Part shown: positions 23,945 through 33,215 of the stretch, piece by piece
Layout: each line of letters starts with the position of its first letter
How positions within the stretch are numbered: the stretch's first letter is position 1
NCBI GenBank assembly: GCA_021740785.1
Contig: JAIOZI010000001.1
Location: 186,001 to 250,000 of the forward strand
Reading direction: 5' to 3'
Source: Melioribacteraceae bacterium
GTDB lineage: Bacteria; Bacteroidota; Ignavibacteria; Ignavibacteriales; Melioribacteraceae
DNA length: 64,000 nt
The notes under the pieces: generated by a model
Database searches by the model: none
Seen by the model: the letters and a program-made list of their open reading frames with translations, nothing else
Told to the model about the DNA's origin: nothing
Position numbers and translations under genes: made by a program

Positions 23945-26900
23945 CCGAACCATATATTTGTTGTTATTTTTAATAACTGTACCAACTTATTCCCAAAATT
24001 CTTTGATAATTAAATTGAAAGATGATGTTTTATCATTTCAAAATGCGGAAGAATTAATAAAAGAAACCATAGAAACAACTTCAGGTAACACATCATATCA
24101 TATTAATTATAAACAAGTAAAGTTAAGTCCTCTTACATCAAATATAGCTTTTAGCAATTATTTGGTTCTTTCATCAATACAAGAAGATTTTCCGTTCGAA
24201 AGTGTAAAAAATAATCTGCCTAATTCCGATCTTATTGAGCATGTTGATTATAACAACATTTACAAAATTGATTCCGTACCAAACGATAGTTTATATTCGG
24301 AGCAATGGTACATCTCAACTGTTCAAGCAGATAAGGCTTTTGAAATTAGTAGTGGGAGCACGGACAATGTAATCGGAGTAATCGATACAGGAATTGACTA
24401 TTTTCACCCGGATTTAATTAATTCATTATATATAAATTATGGTGAGACCGGACTGGATTCCAATGGTGTTGATAAATCTTTCAATGGAATTGATGATGAC
24501 AAAAACGGATATATTGATGATTACCGCGGTGGTGATTTCGTTGACAAATCATGGAATATGATTGATTCAACTGATGGAGATTATTTTGATTGGGACAATG
24601 ATCCATTCGATGAGAATGGTCACGGGACAAATATTGCCGGTATAATTGGCGCCGAACAAGATAATTTGATTGGGATTGCAGGAATTGCTCCCGGCTGTAA
24701 AATCCTCAACTTGCGTGCTTTCGATAAGAATGGTTATGGTGAGGAAGACGATGCAGCTGCAGCAATAATTTATGCGGTTGATATCGGAGTAAAAATCATA
24801 AATATGAGTTTTGGAGATGCTGTTTACTCACATCTGCTAGAGGATGTGATTGATTATGCGCACCAAAATGGAGTTGTTTTAATTGGAAGCGCAGGTAACT
24901 CATCAACAGATATTCCACATTATCCCTCCGGTTTTTCTCAGGTTATTTCAGTCAATTCAACGGATGCAAATGACAACATTGCAAGTTTTTCGAATTTCGG
25001 TAACAGCATCGATCTTTCTGCTCCCGGCGCAGATATTATTACTACAAATATTAATAATAGTTATAAAAATGTAAGTGGGACGTCAATTTCAGCGCCGTTT
25101 GTAAGTGCCGCCGCAGCATTATTACTTTCTCAAAAAAATTACACTTCAGCAGAAATTAAGCAAATACTAAAAAGCACTTCTGAAGATATTGTTAATCCCG
25201 GTTATGATTATTATTCAGGAGCAGGGCGTTTGAATTTGTACAGAGCATTGTTGTCTCAATCCCGTGAAATTATTGAAATACATGCTCCCCAAAATGATTA
25301 TCACACAGCCTCTGATTCAATAATGCTTAATGTTTCTGTGCTGTCTTCTGAGTTTTCTCATTTTAAGCTGGATTATGGAATAGGTGATAATCCGATAAAT
25401 TATTCTGACTTGGTCTCAATAGAAAATTATCAATTACTTGAAAAAGATATTTATCATTGGGATGTTAGATCATTGGCGGATACGGTTTTCACTTTGAGAT
25501 TATCTGTCACAAAAAATAATGGGACGGTAACAAGAGAATTTTCAAGATTTCAAATCGACAGGTCTGCTCCCAAAATTCAATTATTAGGAATCGGACCGGT
25601 CTATGAAGGTTTAAATTCTTCATTTTTTACGATGATTGGCACCGATGATCCATCGATTGCTTTCATGCACTATAGAAAAACCGGTGATTCGGATTTTAAA
25701 AAAGCTTCAATGGATGGACTGCAGAATAACATATATTTGACGAAAAATATTCATTATTGCACAATTTCAGAAGTTTTAGAAAACAACACAATATATGAAG
25801 TTTTCTTTACCGCTGAAAATAAATCCGGACGCTCTTCAACTTTGATTGATAATGGCGGTAATTATTTTCGAATAAAAACAGCTCGTGCTCCTCAAATCAT
25901 TCAAAATTATAGGCAAACTTATTCTCTACCGCTGGGTACTTTATACGAGCAGAAAATATCATTTTTTGATGGTGGCACGAATCAAATATTACTTAATACG
26001 CTGGAAGATCCGCGTACATTAAAAATGTATAATTTTGATGGGAAATTTACGGAAGTTTCCAGTTTAATGAACCGAAGGATCCCAAAAGCAATCACAGATA
26101 TTAATAATAATTTTAGAAATGAGCTTATATCATATTTATATCCAATAAGTTATATCGATGAACAAGAAGTAAATTATAGTAGTAATATTCTGAATATTTA
26201 TAAAGATTCAACAAATAACAGGGTATTGATTGATGCTCTCGATTATAATCAAGATGGTCAAACTGAAATTTTCTTTAATGAACAAGATTCAACATTAGTT
26301 AGCTATCAAATCAGAGAAGATTTCACAATGGTTGAGCTCGATCGGTTTGAAAATAATAATGGGAGCATGCAACAATTAGTCGATCATGGAAATATAATTA
26401 ATATTACTGATTTGTATTGCATTCAGAATTCAGACGGAACTGGGAAAATCTATTTCTCTGATTATGAAGGGGATATCATAATTATTGATTTTGATAAATC
26501 GGGAGCATTTACAAATAATCAAATTATTCGAACTTTTTTGAGTGGAGCTGATTGCAAATTTTCGTCATTAAAATATAACGATCAAAACTTAGTGGCTGTA
26601 TTATTACATACTCCAAATTCCGATCAAATTCAGCAACTGAACCTTCTATATATTTTTGATCCTGAAATATCTTTTATCGAACCTATTGAAATAATAGCAT
26701 TCAATGATCCAATTCAATCTGAAAATTTACTTCCGACTAAAGCTAAAAATAATTTGAGTGCTGCGGACTTAAACGGCGACGGAATTGAAGAATTGATTAT
26801 TTCCATATTTCCTAATACTTATTTTTTAGATTTTTCAGATGTCGAACCAGTTGTCACTTCCTATTTTAGTAACGGGAATTTAAAAGCTAATGAGGCATTT

Positions 26901-29729: not shown

Positions 29730-30647
29730 TTGAAAAAAATATATTTTATTGTAAACCCTAAAGCCGGTAAGGGAAAGGGAGAATCCACTTATGAAATTAT
29801 TAAAAATGAATTAAATGAGTGTGATCCCAATAGATTTATTCTTTATCGTACTGAGAATCCTCATCATGCCACAACTATAACTAAAAATATTGATGACAAT
29901 TCTATTGTTTTTGCAGTTGGCGGCGACGGAACAGTAAACGAGGTTCTTAATGGCATTGATTTAAATAAAGATATAGTTTTTGGCGTGCTCCCGATTGGTT
30001 CCGGTAATGATTTTGCTAAGAATGTAAAAACATCAACTAGTATAAAAGATTTAGTTAATAAAATAAAAATGGATTCGTATAACATCCGGCAAGTTGATCT
30101 TGGAAATGCCTTAATTTCTGAGGAGGGAAGTGATGCTGAGATCCATACAAAATTTATTAACGCCTTGGGAATTGGTTTCGATGCATATGTAGCATTCCTT
30201 AATCAAAATTCAAAAGTATTTAATGGATTAATCTCATATATATTCGCTGTTTTTAAAGCCGTTTCAAAAGTTAAATTCGTAGATGCCGAATTTGAAATTG
30301 AGAATGAGACGATTTCAGGTGAAAAACTAATTGTAACTTTAGGTAATGGTCATTGCTCCGGCGGTGGGTTTTATCTAAATCCCGGCGCTGTGATTGATGA
30401 CGGGATTTTGAATCTTACAACTATTGAAAAAATTGGAAAACTGCGAATATTAAAAGAACTGCCTAAAGCTCTTTTTAATAAACTGGAAACTATAGATATA
30501 GCAAAAATGTATAAATTCGAGCAGATTGATATTCGTCTGAAATCCGGTAATTTTGTTCACACAGATGGTGAAGTTGTAACCGCTAATGCAACCAGGATTA
30601 AAGTAAATATTATTAAATCCGGGATTAAGATTATAAACTTATTATGA
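29730..30647 (+). CDS. Diacylglycerol-kinase-family lipid kinase
   Basis: A 305-residue member of the YegS/BmrU/DagK group. 'FIVNPKAGKGKGE' and the nucleotide-binding GGDGT at residues 64-68 ('VGGDGTVNEVLNG'), followed by 'LPIGSGNDFAK', are diagnostic. It phosphorylates a lipid such as diacylglycerol or a related substrate; undecaprenol is less likely from sequence. The start is TTG 29730 without a strong ribosome site. The small basic membrane peptide gene overlaps its stop by four bases. Confidence 0.88.
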   Translation: MKKIYFIVNPKAGKGKGESTYEIIKNELNECDPNRFILYRTENPHHATTITKNIDDNSIVFAVGGDGTVNEVLNGIDLNKDIVFGVLPIGSGNDFAKNVKTSTSIKDLVNKIKMDSYNIRQVDLGNALISEEGSDAEIHTKFINALGIGFDAYVAFLNQNSKVFNGLISYIFAVFKAVSKVKFVDAEFEIENETISGEKLIVTLGNGHCSGGGFYLNPGAVIDDGILNLTTIEKIGKLRILKELPKALFNKLETIDIAKMYKFEQIDIRLKSGNFVHTDGEVVTANATRIKVNIIKSGIKIINLL

Positions 30648-30853
30648 TTACAAAGCGACCAAGACATAGAGTTTTTGATTTCACACCTCAGCATTATGAT
30701 CCTGAGAAGGATCCCGACAACCGTGAAAAAAGAAAAAAACGTCTTCGACTTAGATATCAACGCAAGCATGCCAGAGGTAAGAAACTCCCGATATTTTACA
30801 TTATTCTTTTTATAATAATTTTATTTCTTTACTTAAAATTTAGCGGTAATTGA
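30644..30853 (+). CDS. Small basic single-pass membrane protein (69 aa)
   Basis: Not recognised as a named family. Residues 1-47 are strongly basic ('KRKKRLRLRYQRKHARGKK'), and 48-66 form one hydrophobic helix. This would place a positively charged tail in the cytoplasm next to the membrane. Its ATG overlaps the stop of the lipid kinase gene (ATGA), suggesting coupled translation and a link to membrane lipid or nucleic acid handling; that link is inference. Confidence 0.62.
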   Translation: MITKRPRHRVFDFTPQHYDPEKDPDNREKRKKRLRLRYQRKHARGKKLPIFYIILFIIILFLYLKFSGN

Positions 30854-30861
30854 TATAATTA

Positions 30862-31062
30862 ACTCACGTTACGCAAACTCATATTTAAATTTGCCACGAC
30901 CTTTGGACGCTCGCTTAAAAGCCCAGCCAAAATAGGCTAGATTCAAACTTAGCGAGATGAATCTTGCCTGCCTCGGCGGCAGACGGGCTCTACAATTAAC
31001 ATTTTCACACAAGCTCTAACTGTCGGGGGGGTCATTTAATACAATCTCTACGTAACGTGAGT
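30862..31062. mobile_element. MITE-like non-coding element (201 bp)
   Basis: The element is bounded by perfect 12-bp terminal inverted repeats, ACTCACGTTACG (30862-30873) and CGTAACGTGAGT (31051-31062). The 5-bp direct repeat AATTA lies immediately outside both ends (30857-30861 and 31063-31067), as expected of a target-site duplication. The inside has no open reading frame but a GC-rich hairpin (CTGCC-TCGGC-GGCAG, about 30970-30985) that stands out from its AT-rich surroundings. It lies between two convergent genes. It is most simply a miniature inverted-repeat transposable element mobilised by a transposase elsewhere. Confidence 0.72.
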
Positions 31063-31133
31063 AATTAAGTAGAGTAAAGAGGATTTTGTGTAAATACACT
31101 AGTTTACATAATATATATTATGCGACATTTTTG

Positions 31134-33215
31134 TTACAGCTCATTCATCGTTTCAATGTTTTCATCAGTCCCAAATATTACCAGCCAATCATCTTTTGCA
31201 ATTATATATTTCGGGTCCGGTACTATCAAGTTCGTTTCGTCATTTTCATTCATCAAAGAATTTATCTGTTTCTTAATCATCAATACTTCTAGTCCATATT
31301 TATTTCGAAGTTTTAATTCAGATAATGTTTTACCGACAAATTCATCCGGCACCATTCGTTCAACAATTGAATATCCTTCAGCAATTTTTGAAGCCTTTTT
31401 CCTGTTAATCGTTTTGATTTCATGAACAAAGTTATCAGCTAAATTATATTTGAAGCTCTCTTTATTATATGCTTTTATTACGTCTTGCTTGGATATTATT
31501 CCTAAAATTTCACCAGATATTTCTGAACTTCGAACTAATAATTCATCCAAATCTTCTTTACCGAAGATTTTCATAACTTTCTCTAAATCATCACTGGTCT
31601 CTACACTAATTACCTGATTACTTGCAATATCACCGGCAACCAGCATATCACGTACCTGTTCATATTCAGAAATTATCGGTCGTAACTCGTTTTGCGTAAT
31701 TATTCCATTTATATCACCTGAATCATTCGTTGTGTAGAATGTGCTGAACGGACTCTCCATGAGCATACTGATAAGTTTTGTTAAACTTAAATCATATGGC
31801 ACTATTTGAATTTCTTTCTTCATTACATCTTCTACTGTAAGCTGCCTTAAAATATTTGATTCCCTTCCTTGAGAAATATTGTATCCTTCTCTCTCAAGAT
31901 GCTTCACGTGAATTGACCCTTTTAATACAATCTGGACTAAAGTTGTACTCAGAACCACGGCAAGCATTAAAGGCAGAATAAATGTATAATCCTGTGTCAT
32001 TTCGAAAATAATTAAAATTGCAGAGATGGGAATCGAATTAATACCTCCAAGAACAGCACCCATTGAAACAAGAATATATGTAGTCGGATCAGTATTTAAA
32101 CCGAAGAAATAATTTATCCCATGAGAAAATAAAAACCCAAAGCATGCTCCCATAAATAATGACGGAGCAAATAGACCTCCGAATCCACCGGAATTTAATA
32201 TCAAAGGAACCAGAAGAAATTTTATTATTAGTAAAATCAGCGCCACGTCCCATAATGTTTTTGAAGCTAATAAATGATTTATTCCATCATAACCGATACC
32301 GAAAATATCTTTGTAAAAAAATCCGGCTGTACCCATAACCAAACCGATACTTACCATCAACACCATTTGAGGTACGCGGGTTAAGACTTTCTTTTTGAAA
32401 AATCTTTCGACCGAGCTTGAGTATCTTATGAATAAAATGGAAAGTAAACCTGCTCCCAAACCTAAAATTATATACAAGTAAAAGTATTGATAACTTCCAA
32501 TCTCAGGTGAAGTAAATTGGAATATAGATACATTTCCTAAAAATATTCTCGATATTGCACTTGCCGTAACCGATGCAAGGATCAGTGCGGAAAATGTTGG
32601 CGTTTGAAAATCATTGAGTAAAATAATTTCGAGTGCGAAGAATATTCCACCGAGCGGAGTGTTAAATATTGCAGCTATTGCAGCGCCTGCACCTGCAGCG
32701 GTAAACATTCTGCGGCGGTTATCTGAAAGACCCAGCAAATTTCCCAATTTACTGGCTACTCCGCCTCCTATTTGAGCCGCCGGTCCTTCAGGTCCAACCG
32801 TATTACCTGAACCAATTGAAATAACCGGGGCAATAAAATGAAATATTGTTTCTCTAAACGGTATGTATCCGCCGCGTAATGCAACGGATTTAATTACTTC
32901 AGATACTCCCCTCTTTGATGCAATTTTAGGTTTGATTTTAATCATGATGCTTTGAATCAGCATACCCAAAGCAGGTAAAACTATAACAGCGGCAGTACCG
33001 AGAAAAAAGAGCCCGTCGATTGTTTGTTCAAAAAAAAGGGAGTTGAAAAATTCTATTGAATTGTGAAATATTACTGCAGAGATTCCTGCTACTGCCCCTG
33101 TAATAATAGCGAAGAAACTAAAAACAGCATATTCAGGAAATGTTACTTTCCTGAATAGCTGTTGAAATTTATTTCCGAAATTATTTTCAAAATATTTTTT
33201 CGCTAATTTAATCAC
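31134..33215 (-). CDS. ClC-family chloride channel/antiporter with CBS and TrkA-C domains
   Basis: A 693-residue membrane protein. The ClC core (about residues 25-440) shows 'GVSEVIKSVALRGG', 'GSGNTVGPEGPAAQIG' with the gating Glu143, and 'GGFGGLFAPSLFMG'. A CBS pair follows (about 455-575, 'LTVEDVMKKEIQIVPYDLS'), then a C-terminal TrkA-C-like domain (about 610-693). The kept gating Glu suggests proton-coupled exchange, but the subtype is open. The start is GTG 33215 without a clear ribosome site. It follows hbd by 22 bases. Confidence 0.9.
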   Translation of the reverse strand: MIKLAKKYFENNFGNKFQQLFRKVTFPEYAVFSFFAIITGAVAGISAVIFHNSIEFFNSLFFEQTIDGLFFLGTAAVIVLPALGMLIQSIMIKIKPKIASKRGVSEVIKSVALRGGYIPFRETIFHFIAPVISIGSGNTVGPEGPAAQIGGGVASKLGNLLGLSDNRRRMFTAAGAGAAIAAIFNTPLGGIFFALEIILLNDFQTPTFSALILASVTASAISRIFLGNVSIFQFTSPEIGSYQYFYLYIILGLGAGLLSILFIRYSSSVERFFKKKVLTRVPQMVLMVSIGLVMGTAGFFYKDIFGIGYDGINHLLASKTLWDVALILLIIKFLLVPLILNSGGFGGLFAPSLFMGACFGFLFSHGINYFFGLNTDPTTYILVSMGAVLGGINSIPISAILIIFEMTQDYTFILPLMLAVVLSTTLVQIVLKGSIHVKHLEREGYNISQGRESNILRQLTVEDVMKKEIQIVPYDLSLTKLISMLMESPFSTFYTTNDSGDINGIITQNELRPIISEYEQVRDMLVAGDIASNQVISVETSDDLEKVMKIFGKEDLDELLVRSSEISGEILGIISKQDVIKAYNKESFKYNLADNFVHEIKTINRKKASKIAEGYSIVERMVPDEFVGKTLSELKLRNKYGLEVLMIKKQINSLMNENDETNLIVPDPKYIIAKDDWLVIFGTDENIETMNEL

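Follow-up and report, generated by a model that had tools for sequence, protein, structure and literature searches.

A probable ISAba11-group MITE in a Melioribacteraceae genome with a decayed IS1182-type MITE in its interior

How did a short, gene-less segment with perfect inverted ends come to stand between two convergent genes of a Melioribacteraceae bacterium, and of what is it made? The window considered here is the whole 64,000-nucleotide stretch of contig JAIOZI010000001.1 (positions 186,001 to 250,000), and the segment covers 201 bp of it, from 30862 to 31062. Its left terminal inverted repeat, ACTCACGTTACG, occupies 30862-30873 on the plus strand, and the exact reverse complement lies at 31051-31062, where the right terminal inverted repeat, CGTAACGTGAGT (minus strand), matches the left end exactly. 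This terminal pair is the sole exact inverted repeat of at least 12 bp among those listed for 30700-31300. The bases AATTA flank the segment on both sides, at 30857-30861 and 31063-31067 (neither with a strand). A sequence-only reading had described these ends and flanks as those of a MITE-like element with a target-site duplication, and its coordinates for both are exact. It had also stated that nothing coding lies inside, that a GC-rich hairpin stands out and that the neighbouring genes converge. These statements hold as well: no ORF of at least 60 aa (ATG, GTG or TTG starts) overlaps 30862-31062, the GC-rich stretch is GCCTGCCTCGGCGGCAGACGGGC at 30966-30988, and the flanking stops end at 30853 for a small ORF and at 31134 for a ClC gene. 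When folded, the segment beats 200 of 200 dinucleotide shuffles on each strand (z -5.0 and -6.6), and a strong fold of both strands is as expected of a palindromic element.

The site is occupied in this genome and appears to be narrower in others. The small ORF to the left encodes 69 aa and is conserved in 38 of 58 genomes, the window's own included, and among 14 other loci examined, five have the ClC gene next to it in the same arrangement. The gap in those five relatives has no end motif and measures about 79-148 bp to the last aligned ClC residue; the gap in the window is 280 bp, or 74 bp if the element and a single duplication are left out. Because the five relatives belong to other genera, this comparison falls short of a base-by-base empty site. 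The 69-aa product (window 30644-30853) is basic at the head and hydrophobic at the tail.

A mobile element should have copies, and this one does. Against the 4.85-Mb genome, a BLAST search with the 201 bp gave 63 matches (E<=10), with the window copy as the only full-length match. A second full copy of the outer element (hereafter family A) spans C99:20983-21378; it is 396 bp long, with perfect ends and a duplication of its own, TAATA, so the segment is not a single-copy sequence with no duplication elsewhere, the finding that would have spoken against the MITE reading. Positions 1-50 of the window element, which include the left arm of the outer MITE, are 96% identical to C99:20983-21032, and positions 111-201 are 90% identical to C99:21291-21378. 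These two are the only full outer copies in the genome. Partial ones occur on four further contigs: C21 and C98 each retain one outer end and have lost the other at an inner-module end, C38 appears to hold a decayed left arm, and C69 holds a decayed right arm. As DNA, the 201 bp are found at E<=0.001 in four of 76 family genomes, namely the window's own and, as short stretches, G034, G071 and G075. The ends are more widespread. Their commonest longer form is ACTCACGTTACGCA, and 31 of 146 genomes, the window's own among them, contain exact matches to the 14-base end (two for the reversed control); two genomes have as many as 47 and 50. Several relatives carry their own short MITEs with family A ends. 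The smallest, at L078:1324-1386 (G107:C64), has perfect ends and a 5-bp duplication; at 63 bp it is very short for a transposable unit.

The identification rests on the long arms because the 12-mer itself is not over-represented: at one mismatch or fewer, ACTCACGTTACG has 12 matches genome-wide against 18 for a reversed control, and at two or fewer it has three matches in the window against 1.6 expected. The evidence base is therefore the exact ends, the long arms, the duplications and the copies, and leaves out fuzzy 12-mer counts. Six of the one-mismatch matches, those besides C21:50978, were rejected when no family arm was recognised in 170 bases at each, and an end-pair scan of their loci found no end pairs.

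The duplications are a family trait. Among 48 outer end pairs from the window's genome and from the relatives' loci, 30 have an exact 5-bp duplication and 18 do not, with the consensus TANTA. When flanks were re-paired at random, a control that preserves base composition but not the kinship of copies, 5-bp matches averaged 4.0 and reached at most 10 in 2000 shuffles. The count is confined to pairs whose flanks lie within the locus and are not repeated and which have no further end between them. Only one pair matches at 4 bases and three match at 6; the 27 that match at 2 bases reflect the TANTA make-up.

What enzyme might have moved such an element? The sequence-only reading had proposed a search for a transposase between matching ends, and one relative (G084) supplies it. 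At locus L073 a pair of ACTCACGTTACGCA ends delimits an element of 1183 bp that contains a 357-aa gene and is flanked by the duplication TAAGT; the left end of the window element belongs to the same type. The product scores 338.6 bits against NCBIfam NF049921 (IS701_2), above the cut-off of 250, and its top Pfam match is DDE_5. Against the core IS701 model, NF033540, it reaches 96 bits, below the cut-off of 150. Core IS701 elements make a 4-bp YTAR duplication, and membership in that core family was rejected on the model score together with the 5-bp duplications and the single 4-base match in 48 pairs. A sequence search of solved structures with this transposase returned none at E<=1. Its best plasmid relative (53.7% identity), from a Cyanobacterium, is annotated as a 'group ISAba11 transposase' and has ends TAACTGATGTTACGCA and no duplication; in a relative on a Piscirickettsia plasmid the ends are ACTCACCTTACGCAC and TCATA is duplicated. 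Named relatives also include Bacterium BMS3Abin04 and several Ignavibacteria MAGs. Thirty of 74 named transposase loci were examined for the end motif within 250 bp, with up to 5 mismatches in 14 allowed. It was present at 19, six of which have an exact 5-bp duplication, and none was seen at the other 11, six of them from Hymenobacter.

ISAba11-type transposases occur at E<=1e-10 in 10 of 97 genomes. The window's genome is not among them; the best match there has an E value of 0.14, so the earlier statement that the parent is not in the window extends to the entire genome. The element thus has the ends, the 5-bp duplication, the small size, the lack of genes and the multiple copies of a MITE of the ISAba11 group (NF049921), whose full-length members share the ACTCACGTTACGCA-type ends and the 5-bp duplication and encode a DDE transposase of about 350 aa; it differs from them in being gene-less, in its length of 201 bp and in carrying a second MITE. 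A transposase in the same genome is absent from this set of traits, but is not a strict requirement for a MITE. In G101, six ISAba11-type MITEs of 124-418 bp lie within 14.5 kb (L074, G101:C3:6000-20500), five of them with exact 5-bp duplications; that genome has no matching ISAba11-type transposase at E<=1e-10.

The MITE reading is therefore correct as far as the outside of the element is concerned, with copies, duplications and a transposase-bearing parent in a relative, but it overlooked a second, truncated MITE in the interior. This inner element, a deleted copy from a family with IS1182-family ends (family B), takes up about 111 of the 201 bp. Each arm of the outer MITE borders it with half a hairpin: the left arm (30862-30905, plus strand) terminates in a left half, GCCACGACC TTTG, and the right arm (31017-31062, plus strand) opens with a right half from a second hairpin, TAAC TGTCGGGG. 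Between the arms, at 30906-31016 (no strand), lies the inner remnant, delimited by alignment with complete B copies. Its right arm is complete and ends at 31001-31016 with two mismatches to the family B end; about 30 bp of the left arm are missing. A hairpin module at 30934-30969, AGGCTAGATTCA/TGAATCTTGCCT (no strand), is common to B copies in the same genome. Positions 50-156 of the element match sequences on C46, C81, C35 and C48 of that genome, all outside outer MITEs, and these matched sequences lie in complete small B elements with ends GAGGCTGTGTGAAAAT.

Family B also has its full-length counterparts. At one mismatch or fewer, 35 of 97 genomes, the window's own among them, have the B end pattern, and four have its reversed control. 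At two loci, L151 and L152, B end pairs delimit elements of 1704 and 1566 bp whose genes score 352.6 and 351.3 bits against the IS1182 model NF033551 (cut-off 270). A search of the window's genome for an IS1182 transposase, run with no positive control, gave no match at E<=1. The window has two matches to the B end against 0.6 expected, a number that 16 of 100 shuffles reach, and the candidate at 25297, inside a long subtilase-like ORF, was rejected as a chance match.

Taken together, the window element is very probably a non-autonomous MITE of the ISAba11 group (IS701_2) that holds a decayed IS1182-type MITE. The DDE transposase of a full-length relative would recognise the 12-14 bp ends in trans, and cut-and-paste insertion at AT-rich, TANTA-like sites would produce the 5-bp duplication. 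Since no such transposase turned up in the window's genome, movement in trans is our inference; the ends, copies and duplications, and a parent in relatives, were observed directly. An IS1182-type MITE probably entered the hairpin-bearing centre of the outer MITE before the latter spread in this genome, the composite then moved as one unit by its outer ends, and the window copy later lost about 30 bp from the left arm of the inner MITE. We see no need for a host function. Most likely the element is a fossil, or could become mobile only if an ISAba11-type transposase returned.

Where family B inserts can be read from its flanks. Many B copies lie between two hairpin arms with a 4-base loop on each side, as in CCGTTTAC TTTA/B/TTTA GTAAACGG. 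In a set of 58 pairs, the same 4 bases stand on both sides of B in 35, compared with 9.6 for re-paired flanks (maximum 18 in 2000), and flanks that match at 2, 3 and 5 bases are found in 7, 3 and 1 pairs. Flanking arms that pair at 6 or more of 8 positions, with one base of slip, are found in 31 (re-paired, 8.5; maximum 18), and loop duplication and pairing arms coincide in 21 (re-paired, 1.5; maximum 6). With no slip allowed, 27 of the 58 pair at offset 4, against two at offsets 12-20. Stem sequences at the insertion points vary widely; what these points have in common is the hairpin shape and a T/A-rich loop. Figures are weaker in the window's genome alone, where four of 12 complete B copies have a 4-bp duplication and four of 12 have good hairpin arms, a weakness that we put down to recombination between B copies. 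A looser set of 72 pairs gives 38 direct duplications (re-paired, 10.5) and 30 with arms pairing at 6 or more of 8 (re-paired, 5.5). It includes apparent false pairs of 51 bp in G092, and the stricter set was used for this reason; both counts are restricted to pairs with unrepeated flanks that lie within the locus.

The junction between the two elements can be compared with relatives that have only the outer one. In G034 and G071 the outer MITE resembles the window element in its left arm (86% identity over 42 bases and 83% over 40) and holds no B, and both have an intact hairpin, GCCACGACC-TTCA-GGTCGTGG, at the place of B's left flank. A second hairpin, GCCCCGACA-TAAA-TGTCGGGGC, is intact in G034 and imperfect in G071. 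In the window's genome B lies between the left half of the first hairpin and the right half of the second. The C99 copy has both B ends in place, and because it and the window copy hold B at the same position and carry different 5-bp duplications, we infer that the composite moved after B had entered.

It is conceivable, though unlikely, that B never inserted at all and that recombination between unrelated hairpins brought the A and B halves together. The flanks of B in the window's genome, as halves of two different outer-MITE hairpins, would fit such an event, as would several B copies with unmatched flanks. In G072, however, a complete B sits in one hairpin inside an outer MITE with the loop on both sides, CTCCACCG TTTA/B/TTTA CGGTGGAG (L065). 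The same composite is present a second time in that genome, on the opposite strand, where it reads CTCCACCG TAAA/B/TAAA CGGTGGAG (L082), and the two copies have different 5-bp duplications, TAGTC at L065 and TATTT at L082. The two-hairpin junction in the window's genome is then either the product of two insertions that recombined or of replacement of the stretch between the hairpins, and insertion of B combined with one or the other accounts for both patterns.

As regards outer ends and duplications, a MITE made simply by internal deletion of an ISAba11-type element, with nothing else inserted in it, would look identical, and short MITEs of relatives, down to the 63-bp one, do lack a B or E end in their interior (E being a further family described below). 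For the window element this origin is very improbable, since positions 50-156 match complete B elements with ends of their own and since the sister copy on C99 retains both B ends. Least credible is that the segment is a REP, REPIN or BIME repeat spread by a RAYT, or a structured RNA or bidirectional terminator under selection: the hairpins, the convergent intergenic position and the strong fold would suit it, but the ends are exact, the duplications are 5 bp long, a parent with the same ends encodes a DDE transposase, Rfam families give no match over 30600-31300, and the gap has no ends in five relatives of the same gene order, whereas REP/REPIN sequences are associated with the RAYT tyrosine transposase and make no target duplication.

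Returning to the reading of an IS1182-type MITE inside an ISAba11-group MITE, the arrangement is not confined to the window. A B or E end lies inside eight of 44 outer pairs of 50-900 bp. Two are in the window's genome (the window copy, with the right B end only, and C99, with B and E); G121 (left end only), G127 and G039 have one each, the G039 locus having been obtained through a search for B; G072 has the two that represent one composite; and one in G092 is doubtful, with a right end only and 4 mismatches. Family E, with ends CAATGCTGTCAACTTA, comprises 16 pairs, of which seven have a 9-bp duplication (one mismatch or fewer), seven hold B and three lie inside B. Its ends occur 43 times in the window's genome at one mismatch or fewer (reversed control, 2), and no parent of this family was found. 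Because many loci were reached through B, these nesting shares are not rates. On balance, we lean slightly toward a broader proposal for Ignavibacteria and their relatives: IS1182-type elements and their MITEs would read the shape of a hairpin, cut on either side of its 4-base loop and duplicate precisely this loop. Since these MITEs and two other MITE families are rich in hairpins, each insertion would make new targets, giving rise to self-feeding nests (B in A and E in that B, or B in E) that move by their outermost ends and swap halves through recombination, and the window element would be a decayed product of this process.

Several known systems resemble parts of this picture. As reported in PMC4923244 and PMC5678879, IS1272, of the IS1182 family, targets hairpins with blunt cuts and deletes part of the hairpin, leaving no duplication, and a review cited in the former has some IS1182 members targeting palindromes. 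The inner MITE shares IS1182-family ends and hairpin-arm flanks with IS1272/TnSha1 as portrayed there; it differs from IS1272 in that its family has the loop on both sides in 35 of 58 copies. An IS1272-type mode of insertion was rejected on that count and on inverted 4-base flanks, a possible trace of loop-deleting insertion, which occur in four of the 72 pairs of the looser set and lend no support because re-pairing leads one to expect 8.4. IS1397, ISKpn1, IS621 and ISPpu9 insert into REP palindromes, and five IS families are REP-specific, according to PMC1525189; they are alike in having a palindrome as target, but are bound there to particular REP sequences, whereas the stems around the inner MITE vary widely. 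MITEAba12 is likewise described as non-autonomous and IS-derived (PMC6382973), and differs in host and name. Our search for MITE, IS1182 and hairpin together, which left most subscription papers outside its reach, found no paper, and the words nested, hairpin, IS1182, ISAba11 and IS701 are absent from a 2024 review of prokaryotic MITEs (PMC10969869). One paper naming ISAba11 contains no terms for duplications or repeats.

The window element is thus a decayed nested composite of known kinds, and loop duplication and recurrent nesting are its less expected part. Taken alone, the 201-bp element adds a new MITE to a known insertion-sequence group, and its inside is of more interest than its outside. 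The interior suggests a testable rule, that an IS1182-type transposase would pick hairpins by shape and duplicate the loop, where IS1272 is reported to delete it. The growth of mosaic palindromic repeats in intergenic DNA could be explained simply in this way.

Further arrangements of these families were seen in the window's genome. E lies inside B inside A at L004:1792-1996 (G000:C98, one A end lost) and at L003:1315-1500 (G000:C99), and the 9-bp duplications of these E copies are CTCGGCTGC and CTCGGTGTC. The reverse nesting, with B in the hairpin loop of an E element, occurs at L018:1351-1659 (G000:C14) as CCGTTACC TTTA/B/TTTA GGCAACGG. At L004, L016 and L110 (G000:C98, C21 and C69), B stands between outer-MITE sequence and an unrelated hairpin half, and the right flank on C98 is nearly identical to the left flank on C69, as if B copies had recombined.
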